From Typha latifolia (taxonomy: Eukaryota > Streptophyta > Magnoliopsida > Poales > Typhaceae): a stretch of 64,000 nucleotides of DNA. The notes beneath the pieces were generated by a model. It was not told the origin of the DNA. It saw only the letters and a program-made list of their open reading frames with translations, and did no database searches. Location: assembly GCA_019914945.1 (NCBI GenBank), contig CM034101.1, positions 8,567,188 to 8,631,187 of the forward strand. The letters are read 5' to 3'. This document shows, in pieces, positions 1,615 to 60,545 of the stretch. The translations under genes were made by a program, and so were the position numbers. Each line of letters starts with the position of its first letter. Position 1 is the stretch's first letter.

Positions 1615-2591
1615 TGATACGATCACACCTCTGGCTATGGAGCTCTGATACCGGCTTGATACGATCTCGCCTTTTTGGTGAAGGGTCGATCTCTTCCAAT
1701 TCTTGATCTGGACTAGATCTGGCACAGAACTTTGAAATAAGATCCCGAAATATGTCGCCGTCGGATCGACGTGAAACTTTGATATGTTGTAGCCCCAGAA
1801 AAGATCTTTCCAACAAATCTAGTTTCAGGCGAATCGGAGTTGGGGATCTCGAGATATCGTTCATTTAGTGGACAAACATCAGGATGCTCTGTTTTGGATC
1901 CGTGGATGGAGGCACGAGATCCTAGGTAATGGTGGATGGTGGACCGGTGTTAATGTGGTGGCACCGGTGAAAAGTGATGGTGGAAGGGTTGTGGTTGATG
2001 GAAGGATTAGGGCAAGTGTTGGATAGATTGGACGAAGGGGAAGAAGAGGGCCACCCCTAAGGGACTAGGGTGATTAGCCGAACGAGGGAGGTTAGAAGTG
2101 GCGTCGCCGGGGATTGAGAGAACGGGAGCGAAGAAGACGAAAGAGGCAAGGCAAAACTCAATCTCAATAATCAATCCTCAATTTGGTTGCCTACCACATC
2201 CTTTTATAGGCTAACCAACAACTCAAATTAACCCTAAAAACATAATTTTCGTCGACCGCGTTCGAACTCGCCCGACCGCGTTCGAACGCACCGAGTTCGC
2301 TCTTCTGGATTTGCGAATGCGATGCAGGCGTTCGAACGCGCAATCGAACGCGCCTGTCGGTATTTGTAAACGCGATGCAGGCGTTCACAGTGCGTTCGAA
2401 CGCACAGTACATTCTCTTCACCACGTTCACAACCCCGTTCACAAACCGCGTTCGAACTCACTCCACCCGCGTTCGAACGCGACTTACAGAAAACTTATTT
2501 TAATGGAAATTAAACACTAAAACATGAAATAAAAACACTCCTAAAGTGAATCCATGCTCGAGACGACGTTGGTGAAGTCCGAATCGTATCA
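1615..2591 (-). mobile_element. Solo-LTR-like gypsy insertion with 5-bp target duplication
   Basis: Bounded by perfect 5-bp direct repeats ATTGG (1610-1614 and 2592-2596) and imperfect terminal inverted repeats TGATACGATC/GAATCGTATCA. It is the reverse complement of the element at 34721-35737. On the minus strand it starts in U3, carries a GCGTTCGAACGC-type array (about 2240-2480) and a TATAAAAGG box (revcomp of about 2204-2212). Its last part holds a copy of the PBS-like GGTATCAGAGC (revcomp, about 1645-1655), followed by a second GATCGTATCA terminus. It therefore includes about 42 bp beyond the usual LTR end. No coding sequence; it interrupts the copia RNase H. Confidence 0.85.
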
Positions 2592-2596
2592 ATTGG

Positions 2597-2830
2597 TTAG
2601 ATGGATGACTTATGCATATATCAAGAGCAAGTGAAGTTGCATTGTGATAGCTAGAGTTTAATTTGTTTAGCAAAAAATTAACTTTATTACCTTAGAACAA
2701 GCACATAAATGTCTAAATTTATTTTGTGACGAAAATTTTGGAAGAAGACAATTTTATTTACAAAATTGGAATTGTAGATAATTCTACAAATATGTCAATA
2801 GAAGTGGTGACAAGGGTTAAGTTCCAGCGG
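2597..2830 (+). pseudogene. Copia RNase H C-terminal remnant
   Basis: Continues the decayed copia pol after the insertion. The translation from about 2640 reads CDS-SLICLAKN followed by LYYLRT, the usual copia RNase H tail (CDN/S..A..L..NP..H.RTKHI). Near 2800-2835 it reads TRVKFQRCLDLI, the copia C-terminus. Several in-frame stops occur. Joining 1609 to 2597 restores the expected domain order, which supports the insertion boundaries. Confidence 0.75.
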
Positions 2831-3560
2831 TGTTTGGACTTAATCAATATCACACATGTTTGATTATTTTGGATTTGGCGTCCTAAGATGCAAATTTACA
2901 AACAGTGCATTTTGTGAGATTTTATTCACTTTGCATTGGTGAAGAGAAACTTGTTTGAAGCCTTGCAGTTATCTCAAAGATAGAGAATTGTTGAAGATTG
3001 GCTTGAATAAAAAGAAAATCAATTGAACGGGATTGGATCTATTTGAACAGTGTTATTGCAGGTTAGCATTCCAAGTTCCATGTGCTAGGCGTTTGGATGA
3101 ACTCTGGTGGCATTCGAACACCTAGGCACGAGAAAATATTTACACACCACATGTATTTAAATAGGTTATTAGAGTGTTTGAATGCCATTTTATGTTTTAG
3201 ATTAATGTTCGGAGGCATTGTAATAGGCATTCAAGCGTTCCAATGCCCAGTAGAATTTCTTCTCTATCAAGTCACCCGTAAACATAGATAAGTTATGATT
3301 TTAAGGTTATTATGAAAAAGCAAAACTTGAGAGATATAACCACTACTATAAAGAGGTAGATTGGAGTATCAAAAGCTTTGTACTTGGATTTGGATTAATA
3401 GGTCGAAACTTTGCACCACCTATAGAGAAGGAACATTATCGAACTGGTTCGTAATCGTATGCCTCTCCTTCTCTAATGATTACTTTCAATAAGAGTTCTT
3501 GTTTATGGTTTAATTGATTGATTGCTATTACCCTTCTATTAGCATCAAATTTTTAATATT
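2831..3560 (+). repeat. Probable decayed 3' LTR of the same copia element
   Basis: Lies directly downstream of the copia C-terminus. It contains decayed versions of the palindromic U3 motif (CATTCGAACACC near 3112, GTGTTTGAATGCC near 3174, GGCATTCAAGCG near 3227) and a CTATAAAGAGG TATA-like box near 3350. Ends are not definable, since no matching 5' LTR lies in the window. Assignment as LTR is inference from position and motifs. Confidence 0.4.
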
Positions 3561-4491: not shown

Positions 4492-6801
4492 TCACATCGG
4501 CTGGATCCAGGAGACCACGATGGGGCTCCTGACCTCGTGGGCCCCGTCCGACCACACGAGATAGGCATACGCCGGCGCGGTCGTTGCCGCCGCCGCCGAC
4601 ACCGTGACGGCGAAGCTCCGCTTCCTCGCCGCCGCCGAGAATGCCAGCTTCCTCGGCCTTACGCTCACTACTACACCGTTCGCCGCCGCCATTTCAAGTC
4701 TGTTACGGTAGACGGCATCCGCGGTGGTTCCCACGTTGGTCACCATCCTCATGACAGTTCGGGTCTGGTTCCCCGCGCCGCTGTCGAAGGTCACCGAGAT
4801 AGAGGGGTAGTTGAGGTCCGGTATCGCGGGCTTCCTAGCCGGGCACGCCTCCGGCGCGTGCGTTATGACCTGGATGGTCTTGGCGTCGTAGCCCAAGGCG
4901 CAGAGGTAATTGACGTAGTCGGCGTCACCAAGATCGTAGACCAAACCGGGGTCCATGGCCTTCCCCAGGTTGAGATGCCCCGCCCCGAAATCGAAGGGGG
5001 AGGCAGGGCGACCGGTCGACTCGTCCGTCACGTGTCCGCCGCGGTTGTCGGCCACAGTGGCCGTGGTCATCATCGCGGAGCGGATCATGGCGGGGCTCCA
5101 ATTCGGGTGCGCAGACTTGAGTAACGCTGCGGCACCGCTCACGTGCGGGCAGGCCATGGAGGTGCCGGAGAGGATGTTAAACTCGGTGCGGCGACGGTCC
5201 GATTCGAGCCCCGTCGGCCCCGTCGCGCCGGTCCACGCCGCCAAAATATTGACTCCGGGGGCCACTAGATCCGGCTTGAGTACCTCCGGGCTCAGCCCGT
5301 TGGGCCCGCGTGCAGAGAAGGAGGCCACCACCGGCGCCGGCTTGACCCCGAGAACAGTCCCTTTAAAGTTGATGGTAGCGACAGGGTTTGTGGCCGAGGC
5401 GACGTAGGATTTGAGGGCGTCACCCTCGTCGGCTCCCACCGCGCACGCAGGGAGCACGTGCGCGTCGCCGACGAGGCCCTCCCCGTTGGACGCGCTGTTG
5501 GCGAGGACCATACCTGCGCCGCCGGCTTCCTTGACGACCTGCCCTTTCGCAACGCGCGGGCTGCTCCCGCGGTCGCAGATGACAATTTTGCCCCCGACGA
5601 GCTTGGGGTCGAGCGAGTTCTCCATGCAGAGAGACGCGGAGAGGCCTCCCGAGCGGCCTGGGTAGACGATGGGAAGCATCGAGCGGTTGAGGAGCTTACC
5701 GGAGTAGAGCGACACGCCAGCAAGTCGGCGACCATCGCCGAGAACCACGTAGGCTGGGAAGGTCCGGTCGATGGTCCCGGCGCCGACGGTAGTAAGCCAT
5801 GGGGCTAGGTTGGTCACTGACATCGGGGTGGGCCCGTCATTGCCGGCCGAGGTAGCTACAAACACCCCTCGCTTGACGGCGCCGTATGCACCGACGGCGA
5901 TGGGATCGAGATAGTACGGCGAAGCAACGCCGTCACCGCCGCCGATGGAAACGGAGATGACGTCCACCCCGTCCGCCACAGCACGGTCGAATCCAGCGAG
6001 GATATCGGAGTCAAGGCAACCAGAGTTCTTCCAGCAAACCTTGTACGCAGCCACTCGTGCCTTGGGGGCGACGCCCTTGGCGACCCCAGCGGCGTAGCCG
6101 TCCATGCTCGCGTCAAACGAGATGCTGCCGGCCGCCGTCGAGGCCGTGTGCGTCCCATGGCCGTCAGCGTCGCGCGGTGACATGAATTCCACCGTTCCGT
6201 TCACACCCCCAGACGTGCCGGCGGCTGCGTCATGACCTTTCGAGAAGAATCTCGCGCCGACCAGTTTCTTGTTGCAAAGCGTAGCCGGGAAGCCCGAACC
6301 GGAGTCGCATCCGCCACGCCACCGAGACGGGACTGGACCAAGATTGCGATCGGAGAAGCTGCGCCGTTCCGGCCAGACGCCGGTATCCAGGATGCCGACG
6401 ACGACATCGGAGCCGTAGTCGGAGAGGGACCAGAGGCCGAGCTGGGTCCGTAAACCGAGAAACTGGGGGGATCGCGTTGTGTGGAGGCGGCGCCGGCGGT
6501 CCTCAAATACAGCGAGCACGGCCGGGTGTCGGAGGAGCTCGGCAGCGCGGTCGGCGGACAAAGACGCCGAGAATCCGTGGAAGACCGTATCGTAGACATG
6601 GAGGAGATCGAGCGGCTCGCCGGAGCCGGCGCCGTTGAAAGCGGCGGAGGCGTACCAGTTGGCGTGGGTGGGGAAGACGGATGGTTTAGCTTGGTAGTCC
6701 ACCCGGAAGATGTAGGTCTTCTTCTGGGTAGTAGCCGTTGCTAGGGTTAGGATTAGGGTTAGGGTTAGGAGAAAGAAGAGATGGGGCAAACTGGAGGCCA
6801 T
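4492..6801 (-). CDS. SBT1.6: Subtilisin-like serine protease, SBT1.6 type
   Basis: Intact intronless frame of 769 aa, normal for plant subtilases (family S8). Order: signal peptide about 1-24 with a Leu/Thr-rich core; I9 propeptide about 29-107; probable mature start at the TTRSP motif (108-112); peptidase domain with Asp139 (GILDTG), His215 (GHGTHT), oxyanion Asn321 (SAGNDGP) and Ser548 (SGTSMACPH); protease-associated insert about 360-470; Fn3-like C-terminus about 663-768. Possible N-glycosylation at N201, N372, N567 and N678. Such enzymes are secreted to the cell wall and cleave proteins or peptide precursors. Motifs such as VFEDRRR and RDADGHGTHT match the Arabidopsis SBT1.6 group as I recall it. 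Very GC-rich, unlike its surroundings. The start is supported by the signal peptide and a TATA box about 50 bp upstream. Substrate unknown. Confidence 0.95.
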   Translation of the reverse strand: MASSLPHLFFLLTLTLILTLATATTQKKTYIFRVDYQAKPSVFPTHANWYASAAFNGAGSGEPLDLLHVYDTVFHGFSASLSADRAAELLRHPAVLAVFEDRRRRLHTTRSPQFLGLRTQLGLWSLSDYGSDVVVGILDTGVWPERRSFSDRNLGPVPSRWRGGCDSGSGFPATLCNKKLVGARFFSKGHDAAAGTSGGVNGTVEFMSPRDADGHGTHTASTAAGSISFDASMDGYAAGVAKGVAPKARVAAYKVCWKNSGCLDSDILAGFDRAVADGVDVISVSIGGGDGVASPYYLDPIAVGAYGAVKRGVFVATSAGNDGPTPMSVTNLAPWLTTVGAGTIDRTFPAYVVLGDGRRLAGVSLYSGKLLNRSMLPIVYPGRSGGLSASLCMENSLDPKLVGGKIVICDRGSSPRVAKGQVVKEAGGAGMVLANSASNGEGLVGDAHVLPACAVGADEGDALKSYVASATNPVATINFKGTVLGVKPAPVVASFSARGPNGLSPEVLKPDLVAPGVNILAAWTGATGPTGLESDRRRTEFNILSGTSMACPHVSGAAALLKSAHPNWSPAMIRSAMMTTATVADNRGGHVTDESTGRPASPFDFGAGHLNLGKAMDPGLVYDLGDADYVNYLCALGYDAKTIQVITHAPEACPARKPAIPDLNYPSISVTFDSGAGNQTRTVMRMVTNVGTTADAVYRNRLEMAAANGVVVSVRPRKLAFSAAARKRSFAVTVSAAAATTAPAYAYLVWSDGAHEVRSPIVVSWIQPM
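6742..6770 (-). repeat. Five TTAGGG-like hexamers inside the signal peptide
   Basis: On the plus strand five consecutive TTAGGR-type hexamers occur. On the coding strand they encode about residues 11-20, the alternating Leu/Thr hydrophobic core of the subtilase signal peptide. Confidence 0.8.
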
Positions 6802-6850
6802 CTGGGAGAGATGAAGGTGAGAATATGAGAGTGTGTTGAGTGCCCACTAA

Positions 6851-9157: not shown

Positions 9158-9832
9158 TGATACGATTCAATCCATATTGGCTCCATGCGGGACATTGGGT
9201 TCATGGGAATGAACCTATTTATCTAGTTGAGTAAGTAGAATCAATAAAATCTATTTTTGTCAGGGTCGTTCGAACGCAAAGACCACGTTCGAACGGGGCC
9301 GTTCGAATGCCTGCATCATGTTCGCATCGACAAAGAACGGAATTGGCACGTTCGAACGCAATCGGGCGTGTTCGAACGCCTGCATCACATTCGCATCGAC
9401 AGAGAACGGAATTGGTGCGTTCGAATGCAATCGGGTGCGTTCGAATGCACCGCAGCGAAAGTATGGGTTAAGTTAGGGATGTTAGGGTTATTTGGGGTGT
9501 TTTTATATTAATTATGGAGTCCTTAGGGTGAGCCTCTATATATATATATGGAGGAAACCCTAACTGAGATGGTTCTTATCTGGATTGGAATTGGCTTTAG
9601 CCTCATCTTCTTCTCTTTTGTCTCTAGCCATTGGCGCCCTCTCCCACCTCCTTCCTTCCACCGCCCAAGTTTTTGGTCGGCCTTTTCCAGCCTCTAACCT
9701 CCATCTTCCACAACAACTTCTCCCCCTTCACACTAAGAACAAACCCTAGCATCCATCTAGCCATTGGAGGGTTATCAAGCTAGGATCTAAGTTTTAGAAC
9801 CGTTGTGGATCAGATTAGGCTGGTTCATAACA
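9158..9832 (+). repeat. 5' LTR of the nested chromovirus
   Basis: 675 bp; matches 14327-15014. U3 carries GTTCGAAC palindromes from about 9266 to 9450, followed about 90 bp later by a CTATATATATATATGG TATA box near 9535-9551. Directly followed by the PBS. Confidence 0.9.
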
Positions 9833-14326: not shown

Positions 14327-15014
14327 TGATTTGATTCGATCCATATTGGCTCCACGCGGGACATTGGGTTCATGGGAATGAGCCTATTTATCTAGTTGGG
14401 TAAGTAGAATCAATAAAATCTATTTTTGACAAGGTGTGTTCGAACGCAAAGACCGCGTTGGAACGGGGCTGTTCAAACACCTGCATCACGTCTGCATTGA
14501 TAAAGAACGGAATTGGCACGTTTGAACGCAATTAGGCGTGTTCAAACGCGGCTGTTCGAATGCCTGCATTACGTTCGCATCGATAGAGAACGGAATTGGC
14601 ACGTCCGAACGCAATCGGGGGCGTTCGAACACATCGCCATGAAAGTATGGGTTAAGTTAGGGATGTTAGGGTTATTTGGGGTGTTTTTATGTTAATTATG
14701 GAGTTCCTTACGGTGAGCCTCTATATATATGTAGAGGAAACCCTAATTGAGATGGTTCTTATCTGGATTGGAATTGGCTTTAGCCTCATCTTCTTCTCTC
14801 TTGACTCTAGCCATTGGCGCCCTCTCCCACCTCCTTCCTTCCACCGCCCAAGTCTTTGGTCGGCCTCTTCTAGCCTATAACCTTCATCTTCCACAACAAC
14901 TTCTCCCCGTTCACACCAAGAACAAACCTTAGTATCCATCTAGCCATTGGAGGGTTATCAAGCTAGGATCTAAGTTTTAGAACCGTTGGGATCGAATTAG
15001 GCTGGTTCGTAATA
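14327..15014 (+). repeat. 3' LTR of the nested chromovirus
   Basis: 688 bp, preceded by the purine-rich GGAAGCGTAGTGGAG. Palindrome array at about 14437-14630 and TATATATATG near 14722-14732. Differs from the 5' LTR by scattered substitutions and by an extra motif copy, so the insertion is not recent. Confidence 0.9.
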
Positions 15015-18301: not shown

Positions 18302-19300
18302 TGTTAGGTTTTTATTTGTTGGCAATTGTGTACAAAATATTCTAAGTGTATTTTTTCATGTATATGAGCTTTACACAAGCCTAGAATATCTCTGGTTTGA
18401 AGAATTGTAAGATTATTGGAGAAAAGCCGTCGAGTTCACACCGCGTTCATAAACGTGTTCGAACGCGGTACTGCGTTCACACAGACAGAGAGTTGCGTTC
18501 ACAAACGCGTTCGAACGCGGGTACTGCGTTCACACATACAGAGAGCCGCGTTCACAAACACGTTCGAACGCGAATACTGCGTTCACACAAACCGAGAGCT
18601 GCGTTCACAAACGCGTTCGAACGCAACCTGAAGAATTCAAGTTGTCGCGTTCGGACGCACTCGGGCCCGTTCGAACGCTCCTGAGTTCAAGTCATGCCGT
18701 TCGAACGCACCCGGGCCGCGTTCGAACGCACCAACGAAGTTTGATAAAATTGGACTTTCGTGAGTACGGATAAGACTTGGATTTGTGAGTATGGATAAGA
18801 CTTGGATTTGGCTCTATCTTGGAGATCATATATAAGGATTGTGAAACCCTATCTCTAGGGGGGTTGAAAAAGCATTATTAAAGGAGACTTCTTGAGGCTA
18901 CATCGATTCTTTAACTAACAAGGTTCCACTCATCTACAAAACTGAATCTTTCGTCTTAAGGGCTATCTAGACGAAAGATCAATCTCAAGGGCTACTGAGA
19001 TTGGACTTCAATCACAAGAAGCAGTGAATCGTGGGTTCTAGCGATCAAGACTGAGAGGAACAAAGTCGTTTGATTCGACGGGTTATTTTGTGAGTCAGTC
19101 TTGTAACTGCTACTATTCTAGTGATTGGTTTTGATCCGAGTTTGGATCCGTGGTTTTTTCCCGTTTGGGTTTTTCCACGTTAAAATCTTGGCGTTCATCT
19201 CTGCTTTCGTTTTTAATATTTCTTCCAATTTTTACTTAAGCGAACGAGCGAGATCATTGCCTAGTGTTTAGATACATACATTTGTCTAGGGATTTTTTCA
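18302..19300 (+). repeat. 5' LTR of copia A
   Basis: 999 bp, TGTTAGG...TTTTTTCA. U3 holds four repeats of about 53 bp starting at 18443, 18495, 18548 and 18601, each with a GCGTTCAC segment and a CGTTCGAACGC palindrome. Three further palindromes follow up to 18731, and then the TATA box at 18829. Confidence 0.92.
18829..18837 (+). promoter_or_regulatory. TATA box of the copia LTR
   Basis: TATATAAGG, about 100 bp after the last palindrome at about 18720-18731. It is conserved in the LTRs at 27237, 45600 and 53100, and in reverse at 59423. Confidence 0.8.
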
Positions 19301-25165: not shown

Positions 25166-25312
25166 AGGGCGTTCGAACGCAAATTTTTGAGTTCGAACGC
25201 GGTGACTGGCGCGTTCGAACACGCAGACAGGTGCGTTCGAACGCGCAGACTGGTGCGTTCGAACGCGCAGACTGGTGCGTTCGAACGCGCAGACTGGTGC
25301 GTTCGAACGCAC
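25166..25312 (+). promoter_or_regulatory. Internal palindrome array upstream of the extra gene
   Basis: GCGTTCGAACGC-type motifs. The last five start at 25211, 25233, 25255, 25277 and 25299, exactly 22 bp apart (about two helical turns). Two more lie at about 25169 and 25191. The array ends 13-15 bp before a TATA box. Copies B and C have the same arrangement with only two 22-bp units. Confidence 0.85.
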
Positions 25313-25324
25313 TCAAAGATTCTT

Positions 25325-25331
25325 TATATAT
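25325..25331 (+). promoter_or_regulatory. TATA box of the internal promoter
   Basis: TATATAT following the palindrome array. About 40-60 bp downstream come plant-leader-like ACCCTAGAAACCC and a CT-rich leader. Intact in C (43714-43720), altered to TTTAAATATTT in B. Confidence 0.65.
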
Positions 25332-25522
25332 TGCGTCCGAACCCAAAGGTTTTCATCTTCCATCTTCCAAACCCTAGAAACCCATCATTTCCTCCCTCTC
25401 AAATCTTCAAGATCTTGGTATTTTTCATCAAATTTCTCACTACAAACCGCTTTAGAGGGTAGTTCTCCTCTGGATCTTGCATCTTTTGGCCGAATTTCTG
25501 AGTTTTTCTTCACTTTTGCGAG

Positions 25523-27236: not shown

Positions 27237-28205
27237 TGTTAGGTTTTTATTTGTTGGCAATTGTGTACAAAATATTCTAAGTGTATTTTTTCATGTATAT
27301 GAGCTTTACACAAGTCTAGAATATCTCTGGTTTGAAGAATTGCAAGATTATTAGAGAAAAGCCGTCGAGTTCACACCGCGTTCACAAACGCGTTCGAACG
27401 CGGGTACTGCGTTCACATAGACAGAGAGCCGCGTTCACAAATGCGTTCGAACACGGGTACTGCGTTCACATAGACAGAGAGCCGCGTTCACACAGACCGA
27501 GAGCTGCGTTCACAAACGCGTTCGAACGCAACCTGAAGAATTCAAGTTGTCGCGTTTGAACGCACTCGGGCCCGTTCGAATGCACCTGAGTTCAAGTCAT
27601 GCCGTTTGAACGCACCCGGGCCGCGTTCGAACGGACCAACGAAGTTTGATAAAATTGGACTTTCGTGAGTACGGATAAGACTTGGATGTGTGAGTACGGA
27701 TAAGACTTGGATTTGGCTCTATCTTGGAGATCATATATAAGGATTGTGAAACCCTATCTCTAGGGGGGTTGAAGAAGCATTATTGAAGGAGACTTCTTGA
27801 GGCTACATCGGTTCTTCAACTAACAAGGTTCCACTCATCTACAAAACTGATTCTTTCGTCTTAAGGGCTATCTAGACGAAAGATCAATCTCGAGGGCTAC
27901 TGAGATTGGACTTCAATCACAAGAAGCAGTGAATCGTGGGTTCTAGCGATCAAGACTGAGAGGAACAAAGTCGTTTGGTTCGACGGGTTGTTTTGTAAGT
28001 TAGTCTTGTAACTACTACTATTCTAGTGATTGGTTTTGATCCGAGTTTGGATCTGTGGTTTTTTCCCGTTTGGGTTTTTTCACGTTAAAATCTTGGTGTT
28101 CATCTCTGCTTTCGTTTTTAATATTTCTTCCAATTTTTACTTAAGCGAACGAGCGAGATCATTGCCTAGTGTTTAGATACATACGTGTGTCTTGGGATTT
28201 TTTCA
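27237..28205 (+). repeat. 3' LTR of copia A
   Basis: 969 bp; TGTTAGG...TTTTTTCA. Same plan as the 5' LTR, but the 53-bp repeat block is shorter (starts at 27378, 27431, a partial one at 27484, and 27506). Confidence 0.92.
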
Positions 28206-28257
28206 TATATTTTAGGAAAATAATATAGTTTTTGGCAGGTGCGTTCGAATGCAAATA
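28206..28257 (+). repeat. Continuation of the gypsy LTR after copia A
   Basis: Begins with the TATAT target copy and matches 29264-29315 (TTTAGGAAAATAA, GGTGCGTTCGAA). It breaks off at about 28257 into unrelated gypsy gag-like DNA. Confidence 0.8.
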
Positions 28258-29196: not shown

Positions 29197-30024
29197 TGTT
29201 GCGGTTCTTGATTTAGGTGCATAATGAACATGATTAAATTGCTTCAATTAGTATTAATTTCTATTTATATTTTAGGAAAATAAATTAGTTTATGGTAGGT
29301 GCGTTCGAACACAAATAGATGGCGTTCGAACACCTGACTCATCTTTGCACATACAGATAACACATTATGGTCGTTCAAATGCCCGATCTCACGTTCGTAC
29401 ATACAGAGAACGCATTTTGGCCGTTTAAACGTGATCAGGGTATGTCTGTACACACGATGAGTAAGTTGAGTTGTAATAGGATTTATTTATGGTTTTTGGA
29501 TATTTGGTTAGCCTCCAAATATGTGGAAAGTAGCTTCTTTGAATTATTAATTATTGGAACTAATTTTCACCTAGGCTTGGGTCATCTTCTCCCTCCTCCT
29601 TCCTCTCTCTTGATATTCAACCCGAGTTCTTGTCTACGGCTGAGGTAAATCCTCCGTCGCTTCTCCCTCCTCCTAGCGACCAGCCATATCTAGAAGCTTT
29701 CTTCTCCCACCTCATCTAGTTCCAAGCACTAATTCATCCACCATACCCATAATCATCTTTCATAACTCTAATCACATAATCAACATCCACTTTACTATCT
29801 CTTGACCTTTGGTCATTGTTCCATATGTAACTTTCGATCTACTTATTCGATCAATGAAATTCCAGTGGTGTTAGATTTCTAACTCCTAGAGAAACAACAT
29901 ATTTAAATCGCAGACCGATCCAATGGTTGGATTGAACTCAGTTATCTTTGGAAGTTCTATATTGAATTCTGTCTAGATTATCAAATCTAATAGAAAATCA
30001 TCTTTACTGAAAATGACCGTAAGA
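29197..30024 (+). repeat. Gypsy X 5' LTR, shared with the upstream remnant
   Basis: 828 bp, TGTTGCGG...CCGTAAGA (expected CCGTAACA). It has gypsy 3'-internal remnants on its left and a PBS on its right, so it closes one element and opens the next. Decayed palindromes at about 29299-29430. The same LTR starts at 39585. Confidence 0.85.
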
Positions 30025-34720: not shown

Positions 34721-35737
34721 TGATACGATTTAGACTTCACCGACGTCGTCTCGAGCATGGATTCACTTTAGGAGTGTTTTTATTTCATGTTTTAGTGTTT
34801 AATTTCCATTAAAATAAGTTTTCTGTAAGTCGCGTTCGAACGCGAGTGGAGTGAGTTCGAACGCGGTTTGTGAACGGGGTTGTGAACGTGGTGAAGAGAA
34901 TATACTGTGCGTTCGAAAGCACTGTGAATGCCTGCATCGCGTTCGCAAATACCGACAGGCGCGTTCGATTGCGCGTTCGAACGCCTGCATCGCGTTCGCA
35001 AATCCAGAAGAGCGAACTCGGTGCGTTCGAACGCGGTCGGGCGAGTTCGAACGCGGTCGACGAAAATTATGTTTTTAGGGTTAATTCGAGTTGTTGGTTA
35101 GCATATAAAAGGATGTGGTAGGCAACCAAATTGATTATTGATTATTGAGATTGAGTTTTGCCTTGCCTCCTTCGTCTTCTTCGCTCCCGTTCTATCAATC
35201 CCCGGCGACGCCGCTTCTAACCTCCCTCGTCCGGCTAATCACCCTAGTCCCTTAGGAGTGGCTCTCTCCTCCCCCTTTTTCCAATCTATCCAGCACTTGC
35301 CCTAACCTTCCATCAACCATAACCCATCCACCACCACTTTTTCACCGGTGCCACCCCATTAACGCCGGTCCTGCACCAACCATCATTACCTAGGATCTCG
35401 TGCCTCCATCCACGAATCCAAAACAGAGCATCCTGACGTTCGTCCACTAAACGGACGATAGCTCGAGATCCACAACTCCGATTCGCCTGAGATTTGTTGG
35501 AAAGCTCTTTTCTGGGGCTACAACATATCAAAGTTTCACGTCGATCCGACGGCGGAATATTTCGGGATCTTATTTCAAAGTTTCGTGCCAGATCTAGTCC
35601 AGATCAAGAATTGGAAGAGATCGACCCTTCACCAAAATGGCGAGATCGTATCAAGCTGGTATCAGAGCTCCATAGCCAGAGGCGTGATCGTACCAAGCTG
35701 GTATCAGAGCTCCATAGCCAGAGGCGTGATCGTATCA
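34721..35737 (+). mobile_element. Solo-LTR-like gypsy insertion with doubled PBS tail
   Basis: Flanked by TTTTT on both sides (34716-34720, 35738-35742). The LTR proper, 34721-35653 (933 bp), runs TGATACGATT...GATCGTATCA. Then two tandem 42-bp units (35654-35695 and 35696-35737) follow, each holding GGTATCAGAGC and ending in GATCGTACCA or GATCGTATCA. Palindrome array 34832-35060; TATAAAAGG near 35104-35112. Reverse-oriented relative at 1615-2591, which has one such unit. Confidence 0.85.
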
Positions 35738-38029: not shown

Positions 38030-38902
38030 GTTAGGTTTTTAATTATTGGAAATTGTGTACAAAATATTCTAAGTGTATTTTTACATGTATATGAGCTTTA
38101 TCCAAGTCTAGAATATCTCTGATTTGAAGAATTACAAAATTATTGGAGAAAAGCTATTGAGTTCATACCGCGTTCACAAATGCGTTCGAATGCGGTGCGT
38201 TCACAAACGCATTCGAATGCGGGTACTGCGTTCACACAGACCGAGAGCTGTGTTTACAAACGCGTTCGAACACAACTGAAGAATTCAAGTTGTCGCGTTC
38301 GAACGCACTCAGGCCCGTTTGAACGCACCTGAGATCAAGTCATGCCGTTCGAACGCACCCGGGCCGCGTTCGAACGGACCAACGAAGTTTGATAAAATTG
38401 GACTTTCGTGAGTACGGATAAGACTTGTGATGCCCTATAAGGATTATAATACCCTATCTCTAGGGTGATTGAAGAAGCATTATTGAAGGAGACTTTTTGA
38501 GGCTACATCGGTTCTTCAACTAACAAGGTTCCACTCATCTACAAAACTTAATCTTTCGTCTTAAGGGCTATCTAGACGAAAGATCAATCTCTAGGGTTAC
38601 TGAGGTTGGACTTCAATCACGAGAAGCAGTGAATCATGGGTTCTAGCGAGCAAGACTGAGAGGAACAAAGTTGTTTGGATCGACGGGTTGTTTTGCGAGT
38701 CAGTCTTATAACTGCTACTATTCTAGTGATTGGTTTTGATTCGAGTTTGGATCCGTGGTTTTTTCCCGTTTGGGTTTTTCCACATTAAAATCTTGGCATT
38801 TATCTCTACTTTCGTTCTTAATATTTATACGAACTGTTACTTAAGCGCGAGTGATATCATTGCCTAGTATTTAGATATATATTTGTGTCTAGGGGTTTTT
38901 CA
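38030..38902 (+). mobile_element. Copia solo LTR in gypsy X integrase
   Basis: 873 bp, TGTTAGG...TTTTTCA, with perfect 5-bp duplications GAGTG (38025-38029, 38903-38907). Same family as copia A-D. U3 palindromes at about 38167-38375. The TATA region differs (a short deletion joins GATAAGACTTG to the region after TATATA). Confidence 0.93.
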
Positions 38903-39584: not shown

Positions 39585-39779
39585 TGTTGCGATTCTTAAT
39601 TTATGTGCCTAGTGAATATGATTAACAGCTTCAATTTGTATCAATTACTTTTTATGTTTTAGGAAAATAAAATAGTTTCTGGTAGGTGTGTTTGAATGCA
39701 AATGGATGGCGATCAAACGCCTAATTCGTGTTCGCACATATAGAGAACGCATTTTGGTCGTTCGAACACCTGATCTGTG
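39585..39779 (+). repeat. Truncated 3' LTR of gypsy X
   Basis: Starts TGTTGCGATTC like 29197 and is collinear with it through its decayed palindromes. It breaks at about 39779 where a reverse-oriented LTR begins. Confidence 0.85.
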
Positions 39780-39783: not shown

Positions 39784-40440
39784 GCTCTGATACCACTTTG
39801 ATGGGTTCTTGTACCAGAGATAGTCTACGCAACGATTCCTTCAAGATCTGAATGTATTATAGGAATCAGTCCGTACAACTGTGGGAATATATTTTTTAGA
39901 TATTCTCTGATAGTCATAAAATTATGAAACTAATTGGGTTAGATCCATAACTTCCTGATTTACAACTTTTGTATTTATGCCCTTCACAGATTCGAACTGT
40001 AGTAGAGACAAAAAGACAGAATAACATTGGGGATGGTGGTGGTGACGGGTGGAGTGGATGTTAGGGTTATGGATGGGTATGGAGATGAAGGTGGATGGTG
40101 GATAGTGGATGTGATTAAGGGAAGTAGATGAAGGAAATAAAATGATCAAGATCCCAAAGAAGAGGGGTGACTCGATAGTCGAGGGAGATTAGAAGTTAGG
40201 AGAAACCTTGCCAACAGTAAAGGTGGAAGGATGGTGAAGAGGGAGTAGAGAGAGAGTCTAGAGAGAAGATAGGAGGCAAGAAATTAAAATTCCAATAGCA
40301 TTATGATGTTGACTGCCATCCACATATTTATAAAGGGTAGCTAATTAGTCCTAAAATAATATAAAACCCTAATTCTAGAGGATTCTCGTCGATCGCATTC
40401 GAACGCGCCCGATCGCGTTCGAATGCACCAAAACCTCCAT
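39784..40440 (-). repeat. Reverse-oriented gypsy LTR fragment with PBS
   Basis: Reverse complement shows PBS TGGTATCAGAGC (39784-39795) next to an LTR end (39799: TGATGGGTTC on the plus strand). The LTR then runs to about 40440, with palindromes at about 40386-40430 near its far end. Only this LTR/PBS piece remains. It abuts gypsy Z1 on the right. Confidence 0.7.
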
Positions 40441-42113: not shown

Positions 42114-42322
42114 TGATATGATTCGGACTTCGCCGATGTCATCTCAAGCATGGATTCACTTTAGGGGTGTCTTTGTTTCTTGTTTTAATATTGAATTCCT
42201 AAGAAAATAATTTTTTGTAAGTCGCATTCGAACGCGGGGGGAGTGCGTTCGAATGCGGTTGTGAACGCGGTTGTGAAGGCCTGCATCACGTCCAGAAAGT
42301 GTGAATTGTGCATTCGAACGTG
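42114..42322 (+). repeat. Start of Z1 3' LTR, truncated
   Basis: TGATATGATTCGGACTTCG..., the same start as 56420 and 34721, preceded by GGAAGCGTGGTGGAT. The U3 palindrome array (42225-42320) is cut where copia RNase H begins. Confidence 0.88.
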
Positions 42323-43619: not shown

Positions 43620-43720
43620 AAGGGCGTTCGAATGCAAATTTTTGAGTTCGAACGCGGTGACTGGCGCGTTCGAACGCGCAGACTGGTGCATTCGAACGCA
43701 CTCGAGGATTCTTTATATAT
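43620..43720 (+). promoter_or_regulatory. Internal promoter region of copia C
   Basis: Palindromes near 43624 and 43645, then a 22-bp-spaced pair at 43666 and 43688; TATATAT at 43714-43720. Followed by the leader and the conserved GCGAG|GTATGATC donor near 43909. Confidence 0.75.
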
Positions 43721-44176
43721 TGCGTCCGAACCCTAGGGTTTTCATCTTCCATCTTCCAAACCCTAGAAACCCTTCATTTTCTCCCTCTCAAATCTTCAAG
43801 ATCTTGGTATTTTTCATCAAATTTCTCACTACAAACCCTTTTAAAGGGTCGTTCTCCTCCGGATCTAGCATCTTTCGGCCGAATTTCTTAGTTTTTCTTC
43901 ACTTTTGCGAGGTATGATCATCCATCAATTTTCCTATTTTTTTTATTCAATTAAGTCTTTTGATCTTGATTGATTTCTTGCGTTTTCGAGTTTTGAGCAC
44001 GTTAAAGTTACTATCTTGATGTTTCTTGTGTGATTGAATGTAATATCTTAGAGTTTTCAAGTGGATGATGGATTTCATTTAGGGCCTTCATGATTTCTTG
44101 GATTTTTTTATTTCTTGCTATCTTTTTGTTTGCTTTGGGCATGTATTGAATCTTGCATCTTGTTTCTTTCTCAAGA

Positions 44177-45587: not shown

Positions 45588-45598
45588 AAAGGGGGAGA
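45588..45598 (+). other. Polypurine tract of copia C
   Basis: AAAGGGGGAGA immediately before the LTR TGTTAGG, the classic position for plus-strand priming. Confidence 0.93.
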
Positions 45599-45599
45599 T

Positions 45600-46468
45600 T
45601 GTTAGGTTTTTATTTGTTGGCAATTATGTACAAAATATTCTAAGTGTATTTTTTTCATGTATATGAGCTTTACACAAGTCTAGAATATCTCTGGTTTGAA
45701 GAATTGCAAGATTATTGGAAAAAAGCCATTGAGTTCACACCGCGTTCACAAACGCGTTCGAACGCGGGTACTGCGTTCACACAGACCGAGAGCTGCGTTC
45801 ACAAACGCGTTCGAACGCAACCTGAAGAATTCAAGTTGTCGCGTTCGAACGCACTCTGGCCCGTTTGAACGCACCTGAGTTCAAATCATGCCGTTCGAAC
45901 GCACCCGGGCCGCGTTCGAACGCACCTACGAAGTTTGATAAAATTGGACTTTCGTGAGTACGGATAAGACTTGGATTTGACTCTATCTTGGAGATCATAT
46001 ATAAGGATTGTGAAACCCTTTCTCTAGGGTGGTTGAAGAAGCATTATTGAAGGAGACTTCTTGAGGCTACATCGGTTCTTCAACTAACAAGGCTCTTGTC
46101 ATCTACAAATCTTAATCTTTCGTCTTAAGGGCTATCTAGACGAAAGATCAATCTCGAGGGTTACTGAGATTGGACTTCAATCACGAGAAGCGGTGAATCG
46201 TGGGTTCTAGCGAGCAAGACTGAGAGGAACAAAGTCGTTTGGTTCGACGGATTGTTTTGAGAGTCAGTCTTGTAACTGCTACTATTCTAGTGATTGGTTT
46301 CGATCCGAGTTTGGATCCGTGGTTTTTTCCCGTTTGGGTTTTTCCACGTTAAAATCTTGGCGTTCATCTCTACTTTCGTTCTTAATATTTCTACGGACTT
46401 TTACTTAAGCAAACGAGTGATATCATTGCCTAGTATTTAGATACATACGTGTGTCTAGGGATTTTTCA
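45600..46468 (+). repeat. LTR shared by copia C and copia B
   Basis: 869 bp, TGTTAGG...TTTTTCA. Polypurine tract on the left (end of C), PBS on the right (start of B). A perfect GCGTTCGAACGC lies at 45754-45765. It has fewer 53-bp units than the LTRs of A. The TATATAAGG box is near 45998-46006. Confidence 0.92.
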
Positions 46469-46470
46469 AT

Positions 46471-46482
46471 TGGTATGAGAGC
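46471..46482 (+). other. Primer binding site of copia B
   Basis: TGGTATGAGAGC, one mismatch to the tRNA-iMet complement. Confidence 0.88.
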
Positions 46483-46516
46483 AGGTTCTCTCACCTTTGA
46501 GAGAGATCAGATAGGC

Positions 46517-51023: not shown

Positions 51024-52030
51024 TTTTTTCTTTTATTTTGGTTTGCGTGTTTTGGTTTGCATGTTTCATTTTTTTACTATTTTCTTTTCGTTTTGTTTTA
51101 GGTTTTCTTTACTCTAAAATTTTCTTTGTTTTTAGTTTCAGATTTGTCGAGAGTGTTTGTTATAAAAAAAATTTTTTGATGCACTCCAAGATTCAATAAT
51201 ATACTCTTGACATATAAATATGATTTTTCTCTTGATTATGAGTTATTATAGTCAATTTTGTCATCTTGTAGTATATTGTATCATTTCTCAGTTATTCACT
51301 CTCTCGACTTTTATGATAATTATACTGAAATTAATGCACTCATAACGTGTGTATATTCTTGAGTGAGCATGACATCATGAAATTCTTTTTAAATAGCTCA
51401 CTATTGACCTTGATTTGCATAGTTTGACCTCATGCTTAGTCATCACAAATGTGTTCATAAAAGATCAATGAAAAGGGCTACAATGAGTTAGTGTAAAAGC
51501 CATCTTGTTTAGAGCCCAGTTTGACTCAGTACATTACTTGCAAATTAAATAAAATTTTTTTGCTACTTGTGTATATATTCTCGCACATTGTTTGATTTGT
51601 ACTATAAGAAAAGGGCTACCTACTCATGTGTGAAAGCCATCATTGCACCTATATGGTTTATGTATAAAAATAATAATACAGGAAAAATTCCTATTCTGTT
51701 ATGGCGAATAAGTCAAAAAGTGCAAATTTAAATACTAAGTCGGTTTGACTACTGTGTTGTATCATTGTTTAAATAGGAAAGTTTATTTAAGAAGAATGTT
51801 TCATATTATCTATGCTCACCTTGCATATGTATATTGTTATGATCAATTAAGATTAATTTAATTTTGAGTGATGCATTAGAATTGATTATAATATGCTCTT
51901 GATGATTTGATTGATCTCTGTATGACTTATTTCATTTGATTGTCATATTCTATGTCTTGAATCTATTTTGAATTTTCTAGAAGTGCATCTCCAAAAAGAT
52001 TTTTGATTTGTTTTAGTTTTAATTTAAAAA
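51024..52030 (+). other. Untranslated 3' region of copia B
   Basis: Aligns with 24156-25165 and 42619-43615; AT-rich, no gene seen. Confidence 0.6.
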
Positions 52031-52035
52031 AAAAG

Positions 52036-52135
52036 GGCGTTCGAACGCAGATTTTTGAGTTCGAACGCGGTGACTGGCACGTTCGAACGCGCAGACTGGT
52101 GCGTTCGAACGCACTCGAGGATTCTTTAAATATTT
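52036..52135 (+). promoter_or_regulatory. Internal promoter region of copia B
   Basis: Palindromes from about 52037, with a 22-bp-spaced pair at 52079 and 52101. The TATA position is changed to TTTAAATATTTCG, suggesting a weakened promoter. The leader and intron donor follow (GTGAG|GTATGATC near 52322). Confidence 0.65.
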
Positions 52136-52588
52136 CGTCCGAACCCCAGGGTTTTCATCTTCCATCTTCCAAACCCTAGAAACCCATGATTTCCTCCCTC
52201 TCAAATCTTCAAGATCTTGATATTTTTCATCTAATTTCTCACTACAAACCCTTTTAGAGGGTAGTTCTCCTCCGGATCTTGCATCTTTCGGCCGAATTTC
52301 TAAGTTTTTCCACTTTTGTGAGGTATGATCATCCATCAATTTTCCTATTTTTTTATTCATTTAAGTCTTTTGATCTTGATTGATTTCGTGCATTTTCAAG
52401 TTTTGATCACGTTAAAGTTACTATCTTGATGTTTCTTGTGTGATTGAATGTGGTATCTTAGCGTTTTCAAGTGGATGATGGATTTCATCTAGGGCCTTCA
52501 TGGTTTCTTGATTTCTTTTTGATATCTTGTTTTTTGTTTGGTTGCTTTGGGCATGAATTGAAACTTGCATCTTGTTTCTTCCTCAAGA

Positions 52589-53099
52589 ATGCCTAGGAAA
52601 GCTGCAGTTTCCAAGAAACTTAGGCCGCCTTCGTCACCATCTTCGGCCCCAAATTTTTCTACTTCAACGACTGCAGGACGATACAAACATAATTTTGGCA
52701 CCGTCCTATTATTTGTGAACGACCCGTGGTCATTTCCGATTTTTCATCTTTGGGGATCGAACAGATATTTACTGAGCGAGGATGGTTATCGGTGTGTCGG
52801 ATGAGCGGGACTGCTTATGTGGAAGTTGTTCGCGAATTCTTTTGTAATGCCACAGTTTTAGAACGCTGTATTCGTTCTACTGTTCGTGGGGTGTCTGTAT
52901 ACTTGGACTCTGATGTTATTCGCGCTGAACTTCGTCTTCCTGATGGTGAGTTCCAGTATCCCACGTCTGCTCCACTTCCTGATGTCGATGAATATGCTGG
53001 CACAGTACTGATCAAAGGGGAACGTTGGAAGGGAAACATGATGCCGCATGCGAAACTGACACCAGTGGCTCGCATGCTTCACCTGTTTTGTTTGTCCAA
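52589..53099 (+). pseudogene. Extra copia ORF, truncated (B)
   Basis: ATG at 52589. An internal 1-bp deletion near 52702 (GGCACCGTCC versus GGCACCCGTCC) shifts the frame, and it reopens as 52726-53172. The core is intact up to MLHLFCLSN, where the sequence jumps into the LTR at about 53099. The last roughly half of the protein, the polypurine tract and the LTR start are deleted. Confidence 0.8.
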
Positions 53100-53547
53100 C
53101 GCGTTCGAACGCAACCTGAAGAATTCATGTTGTCGCGTTCGAACGCACTCTGGCCCGTTCGAACGCACCTAAGTTCAAACCATGTCGTTCGAATGCACCC
53201 GGGCCACGTTCGAACGCACCAACGAAGTTTGATAAAATTGGACTTTTGTGAGTACGGATAAGACTTGGATTTGGCTCTATCTTGGAGATCATATATAAGG
53301 ATTGTGAAACCCTATCTCTAGGGTGGTTGAAGAAGCATTATTGAAGGAGACTTCTTGAGGCTACATTGGTTCTTCAACTAACAAGGCTCTTCTCATCTAC
53401 AAATCTTAATCTTTCGTCTTAAGGGCTATCTAGACGAAAGATCAATCTCGAGGGTTACTGAGATTAGACTTCAATCACGAGAAGCGGTGAATCGTGGGTT
53501 CTAGCGAGCAAGACTGAGAGGAACAAAGTCGTTTGGTTCGACGGGTT
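53100..53547 (+). repeat. Internal piece of copia 3' LTR
   Basis: Collinear with the LTR from the last GCGTTCGAACGC block through TATATAAGG (near 53291) to TTCGACGGGTT. Both LTR ends are missing. The left junction is inside AACG (shared by both partners), the right junction at GGTT. Confidence 0.88.
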
Positions 53548-56419: not shown

Positions 56420-57349
56420 TGATATGATTCGGACTTCACCAATATCGTCTCGAGATTGGATTCACTTTAGGAGTTTTTTTGTTTATTTTTTCAATATTTA
56501 AATTCTAAGAAAATAAATTTTCTGTAAGTCACGTTCTAACACGGGTGGAGTGCGTTCGAACGCGGTTTTGAACGTGATTGCGAACGCGGTTGTGAACGTG
56601 GTTGTGAGAGTGCATTGTGCATTCGAATGCCGCGTTCAAATGTACTGTGAACGCCTGCATCGCGTCGTAAATCCAGAGAAGTGAGAAACAGGCGCATTCG
56701 ATTGTGCATTTGAACGTCTGCATCGCGTTCGCAAATCCAGAGAAGAGCAAACTCAGTGCGTTCGAACGCGGTCGGCGAAAATTGTATTATTTAGGTTAAT
56801 TTTGAGTTGTTTGGTTAGCCTCTAAAAGGGATGTGGATGGCAACTAGAAGATTATTGATTATTGAAGAATTGAGTTTTGCCTTGCCTTCTTCGTCTTCTT
56901 CGCTCTCATTCTCTCAATCCCCGGCGACGCCGCTTCTAACCTCCCTCGACCGGCCAATCACCCTAGTCCCATAGGGGTGACCCTCTCCTTCCCCTTCTTC
57001 CAATCTATCCAACACTTGCCCTAACCCTTCCATCAACCATAACCTTCCCATCACCACTTTTCACCGGTGCCACCCCACAAACGCCGGTCCACCTCCAACC
57101 ACCATCATCCTAGGATCTTGTGACTCCATCCACGGATCCTAAACAGACCACACTGACATTCATCCACTAATCGGACGATATCTCGAGATTCCCACATCCA
57201 ATTCGCTTGAAACTTAATTTGTTGGTAGCTCTTTTCCGGGGCTACAACATATCCAAATTTTACGTCTTATTTCAAATTTTAGTGCCAGATCCAGTCCATA
57301 TCAGAGAATTTAAAGAGATCGAACCTTAGCCCAAGGGGAGATCATATCA
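56420..57349 (+). repeat. 3' LTR of gypsy Z2
   Basis: 930 bp, TGATATGATTCGG...GATCATATCA, preceded by GGAAGCATGGTGGAT. Same family as 34721-35653. Palindrome array about 56531-56770; degenerate TATA region near 56820 (CCTCTAAAAGGGATG). Confidence 0.9.
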
Positions 57350-57583
57350 ACTGCTTCCTACAATCAATCTATATCTTAAAAGGATCATTCCGTAACTTAT
57401 CATTGGTATTAGACCTCGTGAACTTTGGACCTCCATTAATGGTGGAGACAAGGAAGATGACATCAATAAGGAGATCAATGGAGAGCACACCAACAAGGGA
57501 AGACTCAATGCACAATAACCCTAACCGAGAGGCCGATTCCCTTGGGGCGGCCACGGTAGGACCGAGTCAACCAGCGTCCATGG
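57350..57583 (+). other. Short gypsy leader/gag-start segment between two LTRs
   Basis: Contains TTGGTATTAGACC near 57404 (PBS-like, several bases from the LTR end) and an ATG at 57439 opening a hydrophilic frame (MVETRKMTSIRRS). It probably is the 5' internal part of an element whose body was lost; uncertain. Confidence 0.4.
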
Positions 57584-58551
57584 TGATACGATTCAGACTT
57601 CACCAATGTCGTCTCGAGCATGGATTCACTTTAGGGGCGTCTCTATTTCTTATTTTAATGTTTAATTCCTAAGAAAATAAGTTTTCTGTAAGTCGCGTTC
57701 GAACGCGGGTGGAGTGCGTTCGAACGCAGTTGTGAACGCGGTTGTGAACGCCTGCATCACATCCAAAATGTGTGAATTGTGCGTTCGAACGCCGCATTCG
57801 AACGCGCTATGAACGCCAGTATCATGTTCACAAATCCAGAGAAACGGGAAATAGGTGCGTTCAGTCGCGCATTCGAACGCCTACATTGCGCTCGCAAATC
57901 CAGAGAAGAGCGAACTAGGTGCGCGTTCGAACACGAGCGGGCGCATTCGAACGCGGTCGGCAATAATGTACTATTTAGGGTTAATTTTGAATTGTTTGGT
58001 TAGCCTCTAAAAGATGTGGATGGCAACCATAGAGTCATTATTGAAGAATTGAGTTTTGCCTTGCCTCCTTCGTCTTCTTCGCTCTCGTTATCTCGATCCC
58101 CGACGACGCCGCTTCTAACCTCCCTCGACCGGCCAATCACCCTAGTCCCTTACGGGTGGCCCTCTCCTCCCCCTTCTTCCAATCTATCCAACACTTGCCC
58201 TAACCCTTCCATCAACCATAACCCTTCCACCACCACTTTTCACCGGTGCCACCCTATTAATGTCGGTCCATCCCCAACCACCATCATCTAGGATCTCGTG
58301 CCTCCATCAACGGATTCTGGTCGAACCTTCCCCGATGTTCATCCACTAATCAGACGGTACCTCGAGATCGCCATATCTGATTCGCCTGAAACTTAATTTT
58401 GTGGAAAGCTCTTTTCTAGGGCTACAATATATGTCAAGTCGATCCAATGGCGACATCTTTCATGATCTATTTATAAAGTTCCATTCCAGATCTAGTCTAG
58501 ATCTAAGAATTGGGAGAGATCGAACCTTAGCCTAACGGGGAGATTGTATCA
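57584..58551 (+). repeat. 5' LTR of gypsy W (Z family)
   Basis: 968 bp, TGATACGATTCAG...GATTGTATCA. Palindromes about 57697-57960. Followed after three bases by a decayed PBS (TAATATTAGAG in place of TGGTATCAGAG). Confidence 0.88.
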
Positions 58552-58611
58552 AGCTAATATTAGAGTGACCGTTCCTCAGACACGCACTTCTTGTGACGAC
58601 AACCAGAGCCA

Positions 58612-59422
58612 TGGCTGCACATTGAGATGATGAAGAAGAGATTCTCCCAATAGAGGAGGAAAAAATGGTTGCGGGGACTTCCACCCACAGAACCGCCCGA
58701 TCTAATCGGAATACGGAAGAACCTAGTGTTCAAGCCGGGTTGGGGTCTCTTTCTGAAAAAATGGTAACTAACAACCAGATGATGATGGAGATGATACGGG
58801 AATTACCGGCGGTAAGGGAAGCCATGGCGAATGGGAATGCACCATCGACCCCACAACGCGAGTCCACTCCCATGAACCCACCGCCAACGGTTTAGAATTT
58901 GCAACCACAAGAGCCGCTGCTGCCACCACCCTATGGGCAGAGGTAAGCAAGCATGGTTCCACTAGGGCCAGTTGCAGGTGAACCCATCCGACAAGTGAAC
59001 CACGGCGAGTTAATCAAAACCGAAGGAGGGATCATCAACCCTTCATGGTGCATCGTCCTCCGGTTAGACAAGGACTTGGACATGATCCGAACAACGGCAT
59101 CCGTGGACAAATCGTGCGTCTCGAATTCCCCAAGTTCAAAGGTGGCGATCCGATCGATTAGTTGTATAGAGCGGAGCAATTTTTCGTATACCAAGGTACG
59201 ATGGAAGAATACAAGGTGATGCTTGCGAACTTCCACCTTGAAGATGCGGCGGTTCATAGGTTTTGAGCAGCCAATGCCAACGGGAGATTGCATCACATGG
59301 GTGTGAACATGGGCTTAGCAGATGAACTTAGGGGCATGTTTCAAACATTATTGCATAGGGTAGACGTAATGCAGAATAATCTTAACGCCTTGAAGGAATT
59401 CTTCGTATACCAAGGTACGGCG
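58612..59422 (+). pseudogene. Gypsy W gag, cut by copia D
   Basis: Frame 58665-58895 gives a hydrophilic gag N-terminus (SLSEKMVTNNQMMMEMIREL). The gag core is at about 59096-59266 (VRLEFPKFKGGDPID, EQFFVYQGT, LANFHLEDAAVH). From about 59275 the sequence switches to a gag-N-like coil (LADELRGMFQTLLHRVDVMQ) and then repeats FFVYQGT near 59402-59419 before the copia D boundary. This suggests a rearranged gag. Confidence 0.75.
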
Positions 59423-60545
59423 TGAAAAACCCCTAGACACACGTATGTATCTAAACACTAGGCAATGATCTCGCTCGTTCGCTTAACTTAAAATTGGAAG
59501 AAATATTAAAAACGAAAGAAGAGATGAACACCAAGATTTTAACGTGGAAAAACCCAAACGGGAAAAAACTACAGATCCAAACTCGGATCAAAAACCAATC
59601 ACTAGAATAGTAGCAGTTACAAGACTGACTCACAAAACAACTCGTCGATCCAAACGACTTTGTTCCTCTCAGTCTTGCTCGCTAGAACTCACGATTCACC
59701 GCTTCTCATGATTGAAGTCCAATCTCAGTAACCCTCGAGATTGATCTTTCGTCTAGATAGCCCTTAAGACGAAAGATTAAGATTTGTAGATGAGTGCAAC
59801 CTTGTTAGTTGAAGAACCGATGTAGCCTCGAGAAGTCTCCTTCAATAATGCTTCTTCAACCACCCTAGAGATAGGGTTTTACAATCCTTATATATGATCT
59901 CTATCTTATCCTTATATATGATCTCCAAGATAGAGCCAAATCCAAGTCTTATCCGTACTCACGAAAGTACAAGATAGAGCCAAATCCAAATCTTATCCGT
60001 ACTCACGAAAGTACAAGATAGAGCCAAATCCTAATCTTATCCGTACTAACGAAATTACAAGATAGAGCCAAATCCAAATCTTATCCGCACTCATGAAAGT
60101 ACAAGATAGAGCCAAATCCTAATCTTATCCGTACTCACGAAAGTCCAATATTCTTAAACTTTGTTGGTGCATTCGAATGGGCTTGAGTGCGTTCGAACGC
60201 GACAGCTTGAATTCTTCAGGTTGCGTTGGAATGCGTTTGTGAACGCAGCTCTCGGTCTGTGTGAACGCAGTACCCGCGTTCGAACGCGTTTGTGAACGCG
60301 ACTCTCTGTCTGTGTGAACGTAGTACCCGCGTTCGAACACGTTTGTGAACACGGCTCTCTATCTGTGTGAACGCAATACCTGCGTTCGAACGCGTTTGTG
60401 AACGCGGTGTGAACTCGACGGCTTTTCTCCAATAATCTTGCAATTTTTCAAACTAGAGATATTCTAGACTTGTGTAAAGCTCATATACATGAAAAAATAT
60501 ATTTAGAATATTTTGTACACAATTGCCAATAAATAAAACCTAACA
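59423..60545 (-). repeat. 3' LTR of copia D
   Basis: On the minus strand TGTTAGG (60545) to TTTTTCA (59423), 1123 bp, the longest copia LTR here. The extra length comes from a 44-bp minisatellite. Palindrome arrays at about 60170-60420. Left flank CGGCG (59418-59422); the matching copy would lie outside the window. Confidence 0.93.
59927..60146 (-). repeat. 44-bp minisatellite in copia D U3
   Basis: Units start at 59927, 59971, 60015, 60059 and 60103, exactly 44 bp apart, each with AAGATAGAGCCAAATCC and TTATCCGTACTCACGAAA. They lie between the palindrome array and the TATA box. Other copies have one or a short partial unit. Confidence 0.93.

Follow-up and report, generated by a model that had tools for sequence, protein, structure and literature searches.

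Box arrays at the locus

The subject of this work is a short palindromic sequence, hereafter the box, that is repeated in arrays within retrotransposons of Typha latifolia. The DNA analysed (the window; 64,000 nucleotides of contig CM034101.1, positions 8,567,188 to 8,631,187) holds Ty1/copia and Ty3/gypsy elements, and the original prediction described a single box common to these unrelated superfamilies. This was borne out, as arrays occupy the U3 region of the long terminal repeats (LTRs) of Sirevirus-type Ty1/copia elements and of related chromovirus (Ty3/gypsy) families (Table 1). Moreover, box, linker and spacer are common to Ty1 and Ty3 arrays, in the same orientation and in register, and this similarity stops at the array edges.

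The box, GCGTTCGAACGC, is a 12-bp perfect palindrome with three CpGs. The window contains 104 matches with up to two mismatches (35 of them exact) where about one would be expected, at the positions predicted. Across the genome (214.19 Mb in 62 contigs, of which 15, totaling 212.3 Mb, were queried), exact copies numbered 14,944, compared to none for the reversed word and seven for a control palindrome matched in composition and CpG layout. Arrays were found in 5 of 20 arbitrary 10-kb stretches, which together gave 46 matches (4 exact, 15 with one mismatch and 27 with two) against 0.5 expected; 42 of these lay within arrays, and all eight arrays were inside or adjoining sequence resembling the LTRs of the window's families.

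Substitutions were tallied over 168 array sites with up to two mismatches, taken from the window and from fetched loci (designated L plus a number; L002 was omitted as a duplicate). The six CpG transitions made up 90 of the 176 substitutions, and TT..AA (positions 4, 5, 8 and 9) was nearly invariant, with just 10 changes. Positions 1 and 12 vary more freely, which leaves CGTTCGAACG as the effective core. Neighboring boxes were 19–22 bp apart in 54 of 138 cases and 48–56 bp apart in 41, a distribution suggestive, and only suggestive, of helical phasing. A search for stronger conservation of the boxes within families was negative for copia and for the hAT-nested element, and gave a slight effect in Z.

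Placement upstream of TATA, also predicted, was confirmed for most arrays: a TATA-like box follows 10 of the 15 LTR arrays, mostly at a distance of 50–105 bp. Among the copia LTRs, five of six had a clear one at 58–99 nt, and none was found in copia60. The array at 18455..18729 consists of units of ~53 bp followed by M-ACTCGGGC-M and M-ACCCGGGCC-M, where M is the box. Between the last box and TATA, some chromovirus LTRs carry TTAGGGTT (e.g. 35055-35085) and, at some loci, GGCGGGAA or GGCGAAAA; we take TTAGGGTT to be telo-box-like and GGCGGGAA to be E2F-like, presumably recalling the E2F and telo boxes of S-phase promoters. A Sirevirus-like LTR in L015 (4200-5545, reverse) holds U3 boxes that, judged by eye, are all decayed, so older copies may bear arrays as well.

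Host elements

The copia elements have an RVT_2 domain, the Sirevirus polypurine tract (PPT)/attachment site and several PPTs. Besides the PPT AGGGGGAG joined to AT-TG at the 3' LTR (45590), further PPTs lie at 45063 and 45279, and those of the reverse copia element at 60548, 60825 and 60904. The Sirevirus PPT/LTR junction, AGGGGGAGATTGTTAGG, has 433 exact copies in the genome (reversed control, 0). In the element at 18302-28205 this junction is replaced, so that the Sirevirus PPT feature is absent there.

The Z element carries a Ty3-type integrase and a chromodomain (PF00665, PF24626 and PF00385), as chromoviruses do. The hAT-nested and X elements were grouped with it by integrase, with 52–63% amino acid identity between families; hAT-nested and X reverse transcriptases show 58% similarity. 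SH3_Tf2-1 is present in the hAT-nested element, and no chromodomain was found in those of its pieces that were scanned by Pfam. The Ty3 LTRs of these families are recognizably related to one another, and sharing within Ty3 may therefore be descent; it is the sharing between Ty1 and Ty3 that needs explaining. Searches with one proximal box plus its downstream sequence gave 340 genome copies for the Sirevirus type and 237 for the chromovirus type (reversed controls, 0).

Linker and spacer shared between Ty1 and Ty3

Two compound units, box-9 nt-GTTCrCAnAnACAGAGA...box and box-NNTCGGGC-box, recur in register across the superfamilies. Sequence like the former is common to the linkers of copia (40–41 nt), X and hAT-nested (typically 37 nt) and Z (31–53 nt), mostly 9 nt from the box. 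When copia linkers were compared with those of Z, hAT-nested and X, no shuffle out of 500 matched the mean score in any of the three comparisons, and the best score was matched by 7, 2 and 1 of 500, respectively. The linker word CGTTCRCANANACAGAGA occurs 1,981 times in the genome (reversed control, 0) and box-NNTCGGGC-box 517 times (control, 0). Close pairs of both superfamilies have a TCGGGC spacer, seen as ACTCGGGC in copia and, in Ty3, as GGTCGGGC, AATCGGGC and, at other loci, GATCGGGC. A search blind to the spacer, evaluated at the 80 places among its first 100 listed matches, all on contig C1, gave 62 places with at most one mismatch to TCGGGC on the better strand, where 1.9 were expected; many of the 80 are copies of a few families and hence not independent.

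The extent of the similarity was measured in 65 Ty1-Ty3 array pairs (5 x 13) with the boxes masked, using 60 shuffles and flanks of 150 bp on each side. The masked arrays gave a mean z score of 5.42, and in 49 of the pairs no shuffle matched the observed score. The corresponding values were 0.01 and one pair for the upstream flanks, and 0.87 and two pairs for the downstream flanks. Similarity beyond the box is thus found within the array and not in the 150 bp on either side. The array of L003, a locus chosen by the palindrome alone and whose LTR resembles that of copia at 70% over 428 bp, was compared with 11 chromovirus arrays, and in 11 of 11 comparisons none of 200 shuffles reached its score. 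The outcome varied among families, the same result being obtained in 5 of 11 comparisons for copia18, 3 for L004, and 1 each for copia45 and L017a. A tree of 101 linker units had short, often weakly supported branches and some mis-registered units, and was not used for transfer direction.

The strongest case is a 21-base linker word, CACATACAGAGAACRCATTTT, with 12 occurrences in the genome, 10 of which were fetched. Two of the ten loci, L025 (the L003 locus) and L027, are Sirevirus-type LTRs and seven (L026, L028, L029 and L031-L034) are chromovirus-type; L030 reads like the latter with a weaker match. L027 resembles copia at 87% over 47 bp in the PPT/LTR junction region and at 75% over 457 bp of downstream LTR, and contains no exact copy of the junction word; the chromovirus-type LTR adjoins Ty3 integrase sequence in L017, L028 and L033. 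The linkers of L027 and L031 agree in 26 of 27 bases, 21 of these being the search word itself, and L027 agrees with L033 at 64 of 88 aligned positions over a colinear run that starts with box and linker and continues through a decayed box and the TCGGG spacer to a further box. For 100-bp flanks, gapped alignment gave 54–67% for L027 against four chromovirus loci and 70% for one L025 flank; the controlled comparison is the 65-pair boundary test.

Internal arrays and other features of the window

The same box forms internal arrays in the Sireviruses, with 10-nt spacers entirely different from those of the U3 arrays. In the two of three internal arrays that were scanned, an open reading frame (ORF) with PF20167 lies downstream. 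These arrays may be an internal promoter, and as they keep the box with other spacers, function probably resides in the box, with the linker either a partner site or a trace of descent. A TATA-like TTTATATATT (TTTAAATATT at 52037) stands near the array end and is followed by AAACCCTA motifs.

Table 1. Box arrays in the window, given as box matches with up to two mismatches except where three are indicated (TSD, target site duplication).
Position	Strand	Element or LTR	Details
2258..2480	-	Z-type chromovirus LTR 1615-2592	
9266..9448	+	hAT-nested Ty3 element, 5' LTR 9158-9830	
14436..14632	+	hAT-nested Ty3 element, 3' LTR 14327-15012	
18455..18729	+	copia LTR 18302-19300	U3 array, 8 sites
25169..25344	+	copia, internal	8 sites, mostly 22-bp period, own 10-nt spacers; before PF20167 ORF (26156-26542)
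27390..27634	+	copia LTR 27237-28205	
28241..28252	+	X-type LTR resuming past copia insertion (TSD TATAT)	one box
29301..29382	+	X-type LTR from 29195	third box with 3 mismatches
34832..35054	+	Z-type LTR 34720-35695	
38182..38377	+	copia LTR 38023-38914	LTR interrupts X-element integrase
39688..39769	+	X-type LTR from 39583	first box with 3 mismatches
40395..40426	-	reverse Ty3-type LTR	box pair, 8-nt spacer; TATA-like box 62 nt downstream
42224..42321	+	truncated Z-type LTR 42112-42320	
43624..43733	+	copia, internal	before PF20167 ORF 44312-44812
45754..45923	+	copia LTR 45598-46466	Sirevirus-type PPT/attachment site AGGGGGAG-AT-TG before LTR, at 45590
52037..52112	+	copia, internal	
53101..53217	+	copia LTR fragment starting 53098	
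56552..56769	+	Z-type LTR 56420-57350	element with integrase 55299-56102, chromodomain 56081-56389
57695..57954	+	Z-type LTR 57584-58565	
60189..60393	-	reverse copia LTR 59423-60551	

A nested setting is present in the window, where a copia element lies within an X-type LTR and X sequence is repeated between the copia internal domain and the 3' LTR. This arrangement shows an opportunity for exchange, not the exchange event. The repeated X-type Ty3 fragment, of 245 bp, stands at 18056-18301, upstream of the 5' copia LTR, and at 26991-27236, the expected PPT site; with the adjoining LTR start, the two copies agree at 99.4% over 310 bp, and the copia insertion itself has the TSD TATAT. A further run, 42320-53548, is ordered copia internal-LTR-internal-LTR, the LTR at 45598-46466 being common to both units, and resembles complex elements discussed in an excerpt of PMC1950507. 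Amid the retrotransposons, positions 4492-6846 of the reverse strand hold a GC-rich, uninterrupted plant-type subtilase gene (S8, PA, I9 and fn3).

Comparison with known systems

Published systems are compared here as they are described in excerpts of the papers cited. The closest parallel to the copia arrays is provided by the RM boxes of Sireviruses (PMC2829016), which are likewise high-copy, CpG-rich palindromic boxes placed in the LTR shortly before TATA, in hosts with multiple AGGGGGAG PPTs. Their clusters were predicted to form a CpG island, and the excerpts state that no shared binding factor could be named for them. Extra RM boxes lie upstream of the ORF in the ENV position, to which the PF20167 ORF preceded by two of the internal arrays here may correspond. 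As in RM boxes, dyad-symmetric copies are many per element, here with eight sites in LTR 18302-19300 and eight in its internal array. However, the core CGTTCGAACG lacks the CGG-CCG signature, as does Tnd-1 in the same paper, and RM boxes were called Sirevirus-specific from a Ty1/copia data set (PMC2829016), whereas box, linker and spacer are found here in Ty3/gypsy chromoviruses as well. With neither the CGG-CCG core nor the Sirevirus restriction applying, we regard the box as functioning in the manner of RM boxes, without counting the Ty3 arrays among them. The position and design of the copia arrays are explained by RM boxes, and the same box in Ty3 elements is new; no report of a cassette shared by Ty1 and Ty3 was recognized among the matches listed from the open-license literature. 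Literature matches to the 12-mer and 10-mer concerned mouse, CpG-oligonucleotide and other unrelated work, and no retrotransposon title or abstract start was among those listed.

ONSEN and further COPIA families carry heat-response elements that are likewise LTR-borne TTC/GAA half-sites, are linked with a host factor and were acquired by several families (PMC5059998). Theirs are spaced as TTCnnGAA and those of the box abut (TTCGAA); moreover, sharing here crosses superfamilies and includes the linker. The heat shock element nTTCnnGAAn was rejected on this spacing. Recombinant centromeric retrotransposons of grasses provide a precedent for exchange between families that yields prolific recombinants, but within one chromovirus clade (PMC4079200), whereas here a short U3 cassette is common to Ty1 and Ty3. 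As to candidate binding proteins, TTCGAA fits TTYRAA, the cell cycle genes homology region (CHR) element, and might on this sequence match be recognized by CXC-domain (LIN54/TSO1-like) proteins. In the CHR center, LIN54 favors one or more A-T pairs (PMC4974476), so its affinity for TTCGAA may be low. The word GTTCGAAC is an 8-mer of an oomycete bZIP (PMC11267843), a lead to which we give little weight in a plant.

Proposed explanation and alternatives

We infer both a function of the arrays and an exchange between superfamilies, and propose, with a probability of roughly 0.6, that the arrays act as an enhancer cassette of the U3, to which a dimeric host factor probably binds, and that Ty1 and Ty3 elements have exchanged this cassette and selection has maintained it. 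A perfect palindrome, a preferred spacing and a position just upstream of TATA would fit a dimeric activator, and the core CGTTCGAACG could be read by a symmetric protein dimer. The cassette would comprise boxes 19–22 bp or ~50 bp apart, a conserved word in the long linker and TCGGGC between close pairs. It may have passed between superfamilies through template switching, when two RNAs are packaged together, or through recombination once one element had inserted into another, and would be retained because the bound host factor drives transcription; in Sireviruses, the same box was also amplified with different spacers before the extra internal ORF. Among the possibilities raised in the original prediction, a host factor site common to the families, with U3 exchange or convergence as the route of its spread, is supported as the likely class of explanation.

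Convergence, in which Ty1 and Ty3 LTRs independently gained the composite site because one host factor complex favors it, is possible though rather unlikely. The different spacers of the internal arrays indicate that the linker is not needed for the box to spread or arise, and COPIA families of Brassicaceae have gained heat-response elements more than once (PMC5059998). Weighing in the same direction, and against exchange, several Ty1-Ty3 pairs share the box with no linker detectable by the shuffle test on 11 chromovirus arrays. For such pairs the original statement that sequences between boxes differ among families stands; it fails where linker word and TCGGGC spacer are in register across Ty1 and Ty3. 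Against convergence, the best pairs agree jointly in linker, box offset, orientation and spacer, and their flanks are without similarity. Those flanks, at background over 150 bp, also speak against vertical inheritance of the array in all LTRs from an ancient common LTR, and retention of just a rapidly changing U3 array since the superfamilies split is implausible. We therefore consider such ancestry very improbable, even though descent suffices within Ty3, where the gypsy families are related and their LTRs similar, and a published LTR-model tree places chromovirus LTRs with Pseudoviridae LTRs (excerpt of PMC3601003).

Maintenance of the CpG-rich palindromes for host silencing or small interfering RNAs, rather than activation, seems improbable. 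Three CpGs per box and the share of CpG transitions given above are as expected of methylated DNA, and neighboring copies could pair in RNA. A 2016 paper reportedly dealt with maize Sirevirus LTR palindromes and the host epigenetic response. However, CpGs in boxes decay no faster than the remaining LTR CpGs (for copia, 0.163 in boxes against 0.217 elsewhere; for Z, 0.167 against 0.241), which does not support the special methylation target first suggested; the elements would gain nothing from keeping such a target across families, and placement upstream of TATA suits an activator better. An internal promoter of RNA polymerase III, or another element not serving RNA polymerase II, can hardly be credited. 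The B box of RNA polymerase III is GGTTCGANTCC, and the likeness noted in the original prediction is restricted to the GTTCGA core, as most outer bases differ; furthermore, the boxes stand in arrays, and TATA-like boxes follow most of them.

The exchanged enhancer cassette thus remains our preferred reading. A broader version, in which the cassette passed repeatedly between Ty1/copia and Ty3/gypsy, one host factor controls the transcription of most young LTR elements in the genome and, across superfamilies, regulatory modules have an evolution separate from that of the coding parts, is put forward tentatively. The finding of the same box and linkers in Ty3 elements makes it testable which host protein binds the box and whether superfamilies can exchange pieces of their promoters. 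It would also offer an explanation for how the same conditions could activate unrelated elements, and suggests either that jumping genes can swap regulatory sequences or that they arrive independently at the use of one host protein.

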